Part shown: piece after piece, positions 2,416 to 6,012 of the stretch
How positions within the stretch are numbered: position 1 is the first letter of the stretch
How the letters are laid out: the number at the start of each line of letters is the position of its first letter
Assembly (NCBI GenBank): GCA_003565555.1
Contig: PXBH01000086.1
Span: 1-63,230, forward strand
Source: Cryomorphaceae bacterium
Lineage (GTDB): Bacteria > Bacteroidota > Bacteroidia > Flavobacteriales_D > Cryomorphaceae
Direction: 5' to 3'
DNA: 63,230 nucleotides
Position numbers and translations under genes: made by a program
Notes under the pieces: model-generated
What the model was told of the DNA's origin: nothing
Seen by the model: only the letters and a program-made list of their open reading frames with translations
Database searches by the model: none

Positions 2416-3426
2416 ATGGATAAAGCACAGGCTACACAGGAAATGGAGCGGCTCATCGATGCCTTTCCGGAAAATATGAAAGCCGCAGTCGATATCGGTA
2501 AGCGGGCGGCTGCGGGATTTCGCACAGGGGAGGTGTCGAATGTGCTGATCTCGGGCCTCGGCGGCTCGGGGATCGGAGGAAAGATTGTTTCCCAGCTCGT
2601 TTGGGATGCGTGCACCGTGCCCATTCACGTGGTCAACGACTACCGCCTGCCGGCCTGGGTAGGGCCCGACACCCTCTTCATCGCGAGCAGCTACAGCGGA
2701 AATACCGAGGAAACCCTCAGCACGGTGGAAGAGGCCGTGGCACGCGGGACGCAGATGGCCTGCATTACATCCGGCGGAAAACTCAAGGCCCTCGCAGAGA
2801 AGGAAGGGTGGAACCTCACGGTGATTCCCGGCGGGCAGCCCCCGCGCACCAGCTTCGGGTACAATGCCATGCAGCAGCTCTTTGTTCTCGCCGCGTACGG
2901 ATTGATCGAAAAGGGTTTTGAAGATGACCTGCTTTCGGCCGCCGACCTCCTGACCAAAGATGCCGGCCTCATCCGCACGCAAGCGGCGGCGGTGGCCAAT
3001 AAAATCAAGGGAACCGTGCCTGTGATTTACGCCGAAACTTGGTTCGAAGGCGTCGCCGTGCGGCTTCGTCAGCAGATCAACGAAAATGCCAAAATGCTCT
3101 GCTGGCATCACGCCCTTCCGGAAATGAACCACAACGAGCTCGTGGCCTGGGCGGGCGGGAGCAAGCAATTTTCCGTGCTGATGATCCGCACCCCCGAAGA
3201 CCACCCCGGCACATCCAAGCGCATGGACCTCAGCAAGGAGATTATCGGGCGGTACACCGACACGATCGTGGAACTCCGACCCGCGGGCACCAACAGAATC
3301 GAGCGCGTCTACTATATGATTCACCTCGCCGATTGGCTTTCGTACTTCATGGCCGTGGACCGCGGTGTGGACCCGATCGAGATCGAGGTGATCGATTATT
3401 TCAAAGCCGAACTCGCCAAAGGGTGA
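2416..3426 (+). CDS. Bifunctional phosphoglucose/phosphomannose isomerase
   Basis: Interconverts glucose-6-phosphate or mannose-6-phosphate with fructose-6-phosphate, linking glycolysis to hexose supply for glycans. The 336-residue length and two SIS-type sugar-phosphate domains fit the archaeal/bacterial PGI/PMI family rather than classical Pgi (about 550 residues). Visible motifs are SGLGGSGIGG (46-55), SSYSGNTEET (91-100), PRTSFGY, and PEMNHNEL in the second half, where the family carries its catalytic His/Glu. The final TGA overlaps the GTG start of lipB, so the two are probably cotranscribed. Whether mannose-6-phosphate is really used cannot be read from sequence. Confidence 0.9.
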   Translation: MDKAQATQEMERLIDAFPENMKAAVDIGKRAAAGFRTGEVSNVLISGLGGSGIGGKIVSQLVWDACTVPIHVVNDYRLPAWVGPDTLFIASSYSGNTEETLSTVEEAVARGTQMACITSGGKLKALAEKEGWNLTVIPGGQPPRTSFGYNAMQQLFVLAAYGLIEKGFEDDLLSAADLLTKDAGLIRTQAAAVANKIKGTVPVIYAETWFEGVAVRLRQQINENAKMLCWHHALPEMNHNELVAWAGGSKQFSVLMIRTPEDHPGTSKRMDLSKEIIGRYTDTIVELRPAGTNRIERVYYMIHLADWLSYFMAVDRGVDPIEIEVIDYFKAELAKG

Positions 3427-4136
3427 TTACAAACTCCCCCAAGGAAGTTGCCTTCAAAGACTTGGGCTCCGTGCGCTACAAGGAAGCCTGGGACTTTCAG
3501 GAAACCGTTTTTGCGGAAGCCGTGGCCGACAAAATCGCGCTGAGAAAAGCCGAAGACACCGCCCGCTTCACCCGAAGCAGCCTCTTTTTTGTTGAGCATC
3601 CGCCCGTGTACACCTTGGGGAAGAGCGGCGACCTCGCCAACCTCCTTCTGAGCGAGACCGAACTGACCGCACGCGGCATCGACTTTCACAAAATCAACCG
3701 CGGCGGCGACATCACTTTTCACGGCCCCGGGCAGCTGGTGGGCTATCCCATCCTCGATCTGGACCAGTTTTTCACCGACATTCACCGCTACCTCCGATTT
3801 TTGGAAGAAGCCGTCATCCTCACCCTCGCTGAGTACGGCATCGAAGGCGGCCGCATCGACGGGCTCACGGGGGTGTGGCTCGACTGCGAAGACCCGGCAA
3901 AAGCCCGAAAAATCTGCGCCCTCGGCGTGAAGTGCAGCCGCTGGGTCACCATGCACGGATTCGCCTTCAACGTGAATACCGACCGCGCCTACTTCGACCA
4001 CATCATACCCTGCGGCATTGACGACAAGGCCGTGACCACCATGGCCCTCGAGCTCGGCCGCCCGGTCGATATCGAAGAGGTGAAGGTCAAGATGCGAAAA
4101 CACCTCGCCGCGCTTTTCGGGTGGATCGAGGTGTAG
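3423..4136 (+). CDS. lipB: Lipoyl(octanoyl) transferase LipB
   Basis: Moves octanoate from acyl carrier protein to a lysine of lipoyl domains, the first step of protein lipoylation. The GTG start lies in a GTGA overlap with the isomerase stop and gives 237 residues, beginning a normal LipB N-terminus; the longer open frame back to 3039 is only a shadow of the isomerase gene. The hallmark RGGDITFHGPGQLVGYP is at about 93-109. The catalytic pair is present: Lys163 in KICALG and Cys197 in IPCG. LipA is not in the window. The stop is followed by repeat-rich non-coding DNA. Confidence 0.95.
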   Translation: MITNSPKEVAFKDLGSVRYKEAWDFQETVFAEAVADKIALRKAEDTARFTRSSLFFVEHPPVYTLGKSGDLANLLLSETELTARGIDFHKINRGGDITFHGPGQLVGYPILDLDQFFTDIHRYLRFLEEAVILTLAEYGIEGGRIDGLTGVWLDCEDPAKARKICALGVKCSRWVTMHGFAFNVNTDRAYFDHIIPCGIDDKAVTTMALELGRPVDIEEVKVKMRKHLAALFGWIEV

Positions 4137-4195: not shown

Positions 4196-4267
4196 GTCCT
4201 GAGCGGAGCCGAAGGGCACCGTCCTGAGCCTGCTGAAGGAACAGTTTCAGCTGAAGGAACAGTTTCA
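4196..4267. repeat. REP-like sequence with an 18-bp tandem duplication
   Basis: CCTGAGCGGAGCCGAAGG and CCTGAGCCTGCTGAAGG occur 32 bases apart. They resemble the CCTGAGC...GAAGG family of short dispersed repeats that I recall from many unrelated bacterial genomes. The second leads into two identical 18-base units, GCTGAAGGAACAGTTTCA, at 4232-4249 and 4250-4267. It lies between lipB and the larger tandem array. Confidence 0.6.
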
Positions 4268-4330
4268 AAAATTAAGTCCTTGGAGCGCCGAAGGCATGGT
4301 GCAACGCAGATAGCGGACATTATGGACAGA

Positions 4331-5016
4331 CTCTAATGAGTTGCACTGAGTTCTGCGTCTGTGCTCCTCATTGACAGAACCATAAAGTCACAAAGTTCAC
4401 AAAGCCAAGGGGTATGGATTGCGCCATACTTTGTGTCCTTTATGACTTTGTGGTGGTATTTCACGGCATGGGTGTGAAACAATAGATGCTGTGCAATCCG
4501 TCTTTAAGGATTGCTCCACTGAGTTGTTTGGGAGTGCTCCTGATTGACAGAACCACAAAGTCACAAAGTTCACAAAGCCAAAGGGTATGGATTACGCCAT
4601 ACTTTGTGTCCTTTATGACTTTGTGGTGGCATTTTCACGGTATGGGTGAGAAACAATAAATGCTGCTCAATCCGACCTTAATGAGTGCGGCACTGAATTC
4701 TCCGGCTGTGCACCTGATTGATAGAACCACAAAAGTCACAAAGTTCACAAAGCCAAAGGGTATCGATTATGCCATACTTTGTGTTCTTTATGACTTTGTG
4801 GTGGCATTTTACGGTATGGGTGTGAAACGATAGATGCCGTGCAATCCGACCTTAAGGAGTGCTCCACTGAGCTATTTGGCTGTGCTCCTCAATGACAGCA
4901 CTGCAAAGTCACAAAGTTCACAAAGCCAAAGTGTATGGATTGCGCTGCACTTTGTGTCCTTTATGATGTTGTGGTGGCATTTTCACGGCGTGGTTGTGAA
5001 ACAATAAGTGCTGCCG
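4331..5016. repeat. Tandem array of a ~174-bp hairpin-forming repeat
   Basis: Four units begin at 4370, 4543, 4717 and 4891 (spacing 173, 174 and 174), preceded by about 40 bases of a partial unit and ending in a truncated fourth. Each unit contains ACCACAAAGTCACAAAG, then TTCACAAAG, a short GTATGG/CCATAC inner stem, and the near-complementary CTTTGTG...GACTTTGTGGT. RNA or single-stranded DNA from a unit could therefore fold into a stem of about 25 bp with three mismatches. The inner stem is intact in units 1 and 2, has one mismatch in unit 3 and is degraded in unit 4. No ORF runs through the array. With the REP-like block it fills the 892 bases between lipB and asd. Confidence 0.85.
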
Positions 5017-5028
5017 ATATTTCCTGAC

Positions 5029-6012
5029 TCATTTCCCTTTCACAAACAATTCCGCAATCTGCACCGCATTGGTCGCCGCGCCTTTCCGGAGATTGTCAGC
5101 CGTGATCCACATGTTGAGGCTATTGGCCCAGCTGTCGTCGCGGCGGATTCTGCCCACGAACACCTCGTCCTTACCTTCGGAATACCGCGGCATGGGGTAG
5201 AGGTTCACATCGGGATTGTCCTGCACCGTCACTCCCGGCGTCTCGTGGAGGAGCTTGCGCAACTCGGCGAGTTCAAAGTCCCGATCGAAGGTTACGTTCA
5301 CGGATTCAGCGTGCCCGCCCGTCACCGGTACGCGCACTGCCGTAGCCGTAACCCGCACGGAATTGTCCCCCAAAATTTTCTTGGTTTCCCGGGTCAGCTT
5401 GAGTTCTTCTTTGGTATAGTTGCCGTCCTCGAAAACGTCGCAGTGCGGAATGCAGTTTTTGTCGATCGGGTAGGGGTACACCATGTCTCCTTTGTGCCCG
5501 CTTCGCTCCGTCTCCATTTGCCGAACGGCCGCCACCCCCGTGCCTGTCACCGACTGGTAGGTGGAGACCACCGCGCGCCGCACGCCGTAGGCCTTGTGCA
5601 GCGGAGCCAGCACCATCACGAGCTGTATGGTGGAGCAGTTGGGGTTGGCGATGATCATGTCCTCATCGGTGAGGAGGTGTCCGTTGATTTCCGGCACGAT
5701 GAGTTTGTGGTCCGGCGACATGCGCCATGCCGAGCTGTTGTCAATGACCCGGGTGCCCGCTTCCGCAAATTTCGGCGCCCACTCCAAGCTCGTACTTCCC
5801 CCGGCCGAAAACAGGGCGATGTCGCACTTTGCCGCTACCGCTTCTTCCATGGAATGAATCCGGTAAGTCTCGCCTTCGATGACGCGGTCACTCCCCGCCG
5901 ATCGCGCCGAGGCCGCGGCGATGATCTCCGTTGCCGGAAAATTTCGTTCCTTCAATACCTGAAACATCACACGCCCCACCATCCCGGTGGCACCCACAAC
6001 TGCAATTCGCAT
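5029..6012 (-). CDS. asd: Aspartate-semialdehyde dehydrogenase
   Basis: Reduces aspartyl-phosphate to aspartate semialdehyde with NADPH, the branch point to lysine/diaminopimelate, threonine and methionine. The 327 residues open with the Rossmann motif GATGMVG (7-13). The active-site cysteine is Cys126 in NPNCSTIQ, and the C-terminal dimerisation domain ends in a conserved Asn-Ser-containing segment and VQIAELF. Start chosen at the ATG at 6012; a TACTTTTG element lies 34 bases upstream. It is transcribed divergently from the lamin-tail protein and its stop lies 12 bases from the tandem repeat array. No other gene of the pathway is adjacent. Confidence 0.96.
   Translation of the reverse strand: MRIAVVGATGMVGRVMFQVLKERNFPATEIIAAASARSAGSDRVIEGETYRIHSMEEAVAAKCDIALFSAGGSTSLEWAPKFAEAGTRVIDNSSAWRMSPDHKLIVPEINGHLLTDEDMIIANPNCSTIQLVMVLAPLHKAYGVRRAVVSTYQSVTGTGVAAVRQMETERSGHKGDMVYPYPIDKNCIPHCDVFEDGNYTKEELKLTRETKKILGDNSVRVTATAVRVPVTGGHAESVNVTFDRDFELAELRKLLHETPGVTVQDNPDVNLYPMPRYSEGKDEVFVGRIRRDDSWANSLNMWITADNLRKGAATNAVQIAELFVKGK

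Follow-up and report, generated by a model that had tools for sequence, protein, structure and literature searches.

A tandem array of CACAAAG palindromes between lipB and asd in a Cryomorphaceae bacterium and its candidate link to GxxExxY nuclease genes

Why does the gap between two convergent genes of a Cryomorphaceae bacterium hold four tandem copies of a sequence that can fold into a long hairpin? The array lies at positions 4344–5014 of the window, the whole 63,230-nt stretch of DNA that was analyzed, between lipB (lipoyl transferase, Pfam LplA-B_cat; 3426–4136, + strand, start approximate) and asd (aspartate-semialdehyde dehydrogenase, Pfam Semialdhyde_dh and Semialdhyde_dhC; 5029–6012, − strand). 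An earlier note on this DNA, made from the letters alone, had described four tandem units of ~174 bp, and Tandem Repeats Finder bears this out (period 174, 3.9 copies, 84% matches, score 955), the unit starts given there (4370, 4543, 4717 and 4891) agreeing in spacing. Each unit is 173–174 bp long and consists of a hairpin of ~78 nt and a linker of ~96 nt. The ~25-bp inverted repeat of CACAAAG and CTTTGTG reported for each unit is likewise present as arms of ~26 bp, each made of three CACAAAG words at spacings of 8 and 9 bp. All four units are given on the + strand: unit 1 at 4344–4517 (hairpin ~4380–4454, z −7.1), unit 2 at 4518–4691 (arms 4552–4577 and 4602–4627, 26 nt and 88% complementary; z −7.1), unit 3 at 4692–4865 (hairpin ~4726–4802, z −6.2) and unit 4 at 4866–5014. 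The last unit, rightly called degraded, is truncated and folds most weakly (z −4.2), and its 3′ end (..GTGAAACAATAAGTGC) resembles that of the last unit on another contig, C93. The array 5′ edge adjoins the right end (..ATGGACAGACTC; 4299–4337, + strand) of a second dispersed repeat family, and a perfect 18-bp tandem duplication (GCTGAAGGAACAGTTTCA) lies a little upstream, at 4232–4267.

The word architecture and the fold both stand well outside chance expectation. Allowing up to three mismatches, CACAAAGTTCACAAAG occurs 11 times in the window, nine of them inside the array, against 0.54 expected and a maximum of two in 100 shuffles. Each of the four hairpins folds better than 200/200 shuffles, and the entire array reaches z −7.5 against 20 shuffles. 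An inner GTATGG/CCATAC stem, also claimed for every unit, pairs exactly in units 1 and 2 only: unit 3 has GTATCG, unit 4 sets GTATGG against CTGCAC, and the arrays outside the window read ..TGTATGG..CGCAC at this position. Alignment of the units shows no conservation of this stem, and we rejected it as a family-wide trait. We also rejected a coding array (174 = 3 × 58), as no ORF of at least 80 aa is confined to it. Little points to a role in RNA. No T-run follows the stems, as the note had observed, and a consensus scan finds three weak terminator-like matches against 0.9 expected. Within the unit family only one pair is changed on both sides, which 479/500 shuffles match, and an Rfam search of the window array returned only a chance miRNA match; the suggestion of a structured RNA thus found nothing positive in its favor.

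The unit recurs in the genome outside the window. With unit 2 as query, nine strong matches (E ≤ 1e-20) fall into three arrays, and all pieces outside the window are located at contig ends. The end of C93 and the start of C221 have exactly 103 identical nt in common, as do the ends of C210 and C157, and we read each pair as one array split at the assembly k-mer. The three arrays then hold four units in the window, at least two in C93/C221 and at least two in C210/C157, the latter two arrays being incompletely assembled. Unit variants cluster by array: both C221/C93 units have a TGT insertion, and both C210/C157 units have CATAAAG and CTATGTG. Such a pattern is consistent with founder insertions that were afterwards amplified or homogenized locally. 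The earlier note had held that absence of the unit elsewhere, together with no stem covariation, would argue for a local neutral duplication; the unit is present elsewhere, while covariation is indeed no greater than in shuffled controls. By the usual features of miniature inverted-repeat transposable elements (MITEs), the unit is short, ORF-free and dispersed; its ends are not sharply defined and its family has no clear target duplication. Dispersal and local amplification are both well supported, and the array is very probably a dispersed palindromic repeat that was amplified in place.

Genome G001, a member of the same genus, retains the order pgi-lipB-asd and has no array between lipB and asd. 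Its gap contains only a short GC-rich palindrome (CGCCCCTAC.., around 2440–2560 of L048) that replaces the end of lipB and alters the LipB C-terminus, so this is not a clean empty site. Among 100 genomes searched as relatives, two match the unit, namely the genome itself and, by a 31-bp stem piece, G001; the other 98 have none. Exact searches with the unit core gave 0 matches for a 22-mer in genome_contigs and 0 for an 18-mer in viral_contigs, collections from which the genome itself or very near ones may be left out. The genome also carries looser CACAAAG hairpins with other linkers on C47, C106, C189 and C218. On C60 (L026, ~1090–1660) there is a further tandem array with a period of ~162 bp, CACAAAG words and a GCTACGCAGCATTTGCAATGCTGC stretch, and on C101 (L045, 1–810) a different palindromic repeat, which contains CCGTAGGAGCGCCCC and CCCCACAGGGGGC, stands in tandem copies ahead of a RAYT-type gene.

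Palindromes built on the same word are found far beyond this genus, in environmental genomes from many phyla. An exact double-word hairpin, with two CACAAAG facing two CTTTGTG, occurs in 8/296 genomes of a phylum that record titles indicate to be Bacteroidota, whereas a reversed-pattern control occurs in none. A scan of genome_contigs found at least 120 loci with a CACAAAG hairpin pattern, and those listed include, going by their record titles, Bacteroidota, Chloroflexota, Planctomycetota, Acidobacteriota, Desulfobacterota and Verrucomicrobiota, along with Spirochaetes, Nitrospira, purple sulfur bacteria and others. Loop sequences vary from genome to genome. The window units share what defines the class as we propose it, inverted arms of tandem 7-bp words. 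Since the dinucleotides between words were free in the search pattern, they can be used to ask if the two arms match: they do in 40/120 listed loci against 14.8 expected from reshuffled partners, and in 22/75 against 9.3 when only one listed locus per genome is kept. The arms are therefore inverted copies of each other and not only clusters of words. The inner three loop bases of the 120 listed loci show no such excess (136/360 vs. 125, P = 0.11). Several genomes, among them an Anaerolineae genome (TTAGGACTTACGCG..CGCGTAAGTCCTAA) and a Bacteroidetes genome (GGCTTTCTCATAAAAA..), have multicopy CACAAAG families with constant outer, inverted ends and unrelated flanks, an arrangement that resembles that of mobile elements. 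The earlier proposal of a dispersed REP-like element thus holds up in a general sense, with the unit at three loci of its genome and the CACAAAG class in many phyla. A literature search for CACAAAG palindromes, or for GxxExxY together with repeats, found no paper in the text it covered.

Which enzyme might act on such palindromes? Among the ORFs beside hairpins, the commonest Pfam family is PF13366 (PDDEXK_3, GxxExxY), with 4/126 members. The 25 families seen most often in 130 control ORFs at least 1.2 kb away do not include it; that list reaches down to families with single members, and being limited to 25 it leaves room for a single control match. This comparison used ORFs of up to 400 aa from greedy calling, 126/127 near rows (one duplicate dropped) and 130/354 far rows. 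A profile search of the 120 listed loci found six GxxExxY ORFs, five within 250 bp of a hairpin and one at 4.9 kb, and that just five lie close to hairpins among so many loci counts against a role for GxxExxY. At the level of genomes, PF13366 is present in 47/50 hairpin-bearing ones. In the Bacteroidota sample it is found in 151/296 genomes, comprising 8/8 hairpin-positive ones and 143/288 others (P = 0.004, Fisher’s exact test).

The flanks of GxxExxY genes carry the same kind of words. We studied two sets of loci, from hairpin-bearing genomes and from the phylum sample, each being the best-scoring 30 and not a random draw, with gene positions approximate in some contig-clipped loci. Around the 30 loci from hairpin-bearing genomes, CACAAAG occurs 33 times within 300 bp of the gene vs. 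2, 7 and 6 times in the outer bins, and CACAGAG 42 times vs. 0, 0 and 14; the reversed CACAAAG word gives 3, 1, 1 and 3. At L239, L240, L249 and L236 the gene lies between CACAAAG arms. The L239 element, with the layout TAACCACAAAGaCACAAAGggCACAAAG - gene - CTTTGTGccCTTTGTGgCTTTGTGGTTAAG, is placed between two frames that we take to be the end of sucC and the start of sucD. Other GxxExxY genes are flanked by CACAGAG, CACGGAG, CACGACG or similar words, identical on both sides. Some genomes combine a gene between CACAAAG arms with palindromes of the same arms (L239 with L103 and L161; L249 with L106).

A test that presupposes no word gives a similar result. Here the 300 bp before the gene were locally aligned to the reverse complement of the 350 bp after it, with L225 and L245 left out and L228 and L246 having no far control; L263 and L222, of equal place and score, look like one gene under two handles. 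In the hairpin-genome set the median score is 20 vs. 9 further out, and 22/28 loci exceed every far value; in the phylum sample the median is 13 vs. 9, with 17/30 above every far value. Observed scores surpass the far control in 25/26 and 28/30 loci, respectively (Wilcoxon P = 6e-6 and 2e-6). Comparison with arms from other loci is more demanding: the true partner ranks in the top 5% at 20/28 loci of the hairpin-genome set and at 7/30 of the phylum sample, where no locus rises above the 99th percentile of mismatched pairs. The modest 7/30 reflects words common to several loci and weak arms at many of the phylum loci.

Inverted arms are not unique to GxxExxY. Among the best-scoring 30 loci from a family search for PF05635 (23S IVP, four-helix bundle; L281–L310), likewise not a random draw, 14/30 have inverted arms that score above every far value. 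The words differ from those of GxxExxY (AGTATTGAG, TTCTGAGG and similar), and CACAAAG is not enriched near these genes (4 per 18 kb vs. 6 per 36 kb). That a second family lies between arms of other words favors word specificity of both gene families and argues against a feature peculiar to GxxExxY. Elements with PF05635 genes may be a second, parallel class that uses other words. Alternatively, such arms could be common to small selfish genes as a whole, or be places where these land, and not be cognate sites.

The genome of the window has three GxxExxY genes, none of them on the window contig. One lies ~100 bp from the C221 array, beside and not inside it, with an inverted-flank score of only 8; one, on C213 (L187), has CACGAAT-word hairpins on both sides; and the third has neither an array nor such words nearby. 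None of the three lies inside a CACAAAG palindrome, and the genome shows no gene-bearing element with the arms of the window units. What ties the array to GxxExxY is the class, not the window locus. As for the protein, the family (TIGR04256/PF13366) is named PD-(D/E)XK by Pfam, and residues G19, G21, E24, Y27, D64, E74, K76, Q88, Y92, N105 and F106 (numbering of the copy near the C221 array) are invariant in 55/55 aligned members, a pattern that fits an active nuclease. A search of solved structures with one member gave no match at E 0.01, and PADLOC, run on the three proteins of this genome, returned one weak Cas4 match for one of them. In the text available, PMC8934634, PMC12085832 and PMC9756366 mention the family once each.

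Our favored reading, in which we have moderate confidence, assigns the window array to a REPtron-like class with GxxExxY as its candidate enzyme, as a palindrome that lacks the gene and was amplified locally. A nonautonomous palindromic mobile repeat would have entered the gap between the two genes and then been copied there in head-to-tail orientation. The gene-bearing form of the class would be a GxxExxY PD-(D/E)XK nuclease gene between CACAAAG-type arms. The nuclease may recognize the palindrome's repeated word, either in duplex DNA or in an extruded hairpin, and a cut at or near the word would allow the element to be copied or moved. Palindromes that share the word but lack the gene would spread in trans, and once in place their direct repeats could expand and contract through slippage or unequal recombination. 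We infer that GxxExxY recognizes and cuts the word, that it mobilizes palindromes in trans, and how the units multiplied locally. The protein-binding array suggested in the earlier note survives as a part of this model, as the words resemble those that a cognate protein would bind. Whether the array belongs mechanistically with the GxxExxY elements seems to us evenly balanced. The wider proposal is more tentative, possible rather than probable: an undescribed, cross-phylum class of mobile elements in which a GxxExxY gene lies between inverted arms of 7–8-bp words that its protein recognizes, and gene-less palindromes with the same word are dispersed genome-wide, here amplified into arrays.

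Other explanations draw on some of the same observations. The second repeat family (TAG[AT]GTCTGTCCAT..ATGGACAGAC[AT]CTA; hereafter the TIR repeat) is MITE-like, with full copies mostly of 137–185 bp (L192–L218), and the CACAAAG units might ride on it or be its targets, moved by a classical transposase acting on the TIR ends with GxxExxY uninvolved. All three arrays have its right end next to their 5′ edge, and the C157 unit is followed by a degenerate left end. Direct repeats of 4–9 bp lie in the flanks of ~9/12 plausible full copies (the E2-type count for this repeat excludes the L220 row and one of the two L202 rows as false). Most copies of the TIR repeat, however, have no CACAAAG unit, and AATGAG-type sequence, into which it could plausibly insert, is present in the array units. 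Either the TIR repeat landed in the arrays or it carried them, and we consider transport by its transposase unlikely. About as improbable is a neutral origin, in which an old intergenic palindrome, now immobile and functionless, was duplicated in tandem. The private variants common to the units of one array, the covariation no greater than in shuffles and the absence of the array from the congener would all agree with it, but a 174-bp unit, linker included, stands at three separate loci. Something must have dispersed the unit, and duplication explains the local copies only.

Hairpins between convergent genes could instead act on transcripts, stopping or stabilizing the 3′ ends of lipB and asd mRNA. 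The folds are stable, and convergent gene pairs are enriched at the listed hairpin loci (29/89 vs. 141/674 background pairs, P = 0.011); a further 13 hairpins were scored as inside ORFs that may be spurious. Still, most listed loci are not convergent (15 divergent and 45 tandem make up the remainder), the bias may reflect only which insertion sites are tolerated, and T-runs and covariation are lacking from an array that has four copies; such a role appears quite improbable. Least probable is a REP element moved by RAYT. The genome does have one Y1_Tnp (RAYT-type) gene (C101:354–698). We rejected it as the mobilizer of the unit, as the tandem repeat next to it is a different one (CCGTAGGAGCG..) and the surrounding 1.5 kb showed no CACAAAG palindrome. 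Nor do the units have a GTAG/CGTC tag, and REP proper, in contrast to the broader REP-like description, falls away.

Should CACAAAG palindromes and GxxExxY prove linked as in the favored reading, an uncharacterized nuclease family would gain a testable function, and intergenic repeats that break assemblies, as at C93/C221 and C210/C157, would gain a source. If the protein does read the arm word, the two could be compared across hundreds of natural pairs.

Among known systems, the array appears to work like a REPtron, yet with neither the tag nor a link to RAYT it fails membership in REP. In the accessible text of PMC3733652, where neither CACAAAG nor CTTTGTG stands at the start of a word, REPs, BIMEs and REPtrons are likewise intergenic palindromes with dispersed gene-less copies and clusters of tandem units that include flanking DNA, and the class enzyme gene is flanked by palindromes. 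Unlike the REPs described there, the window units carry no GTAG or CGTC, and their arms are ~26 bp long with three 7-bp words, whereas REP stems are mostly 5–13 bp. The REPtron enzyme is an HUH transposase, that proposed here a PD-(D/E)XK protein, and REPs reach tens to thousands of copies per genome, compared with nine strong matches here, in arrays broken at contig ends. BrickBuilt, a MITE of Porphyromonas gingivalis, as presented in the accessible part of PMC4596501, is similar in being an intergenic element of Bacteroidota with tandem units inside a dispersed element and inverted-repeat ends; its units are 23 nt long without spacers, while those of the window measure 174 bp and each have a long hairpin of their own. 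GxxExxY loci (TIGR04256/PF13366) differ in carrying a gene, which the window units do not, the nearest copy in the genome lying beside an array and not inside it. With these loci the window hairpins share the word architecture of the inverted arms that flank the gene.
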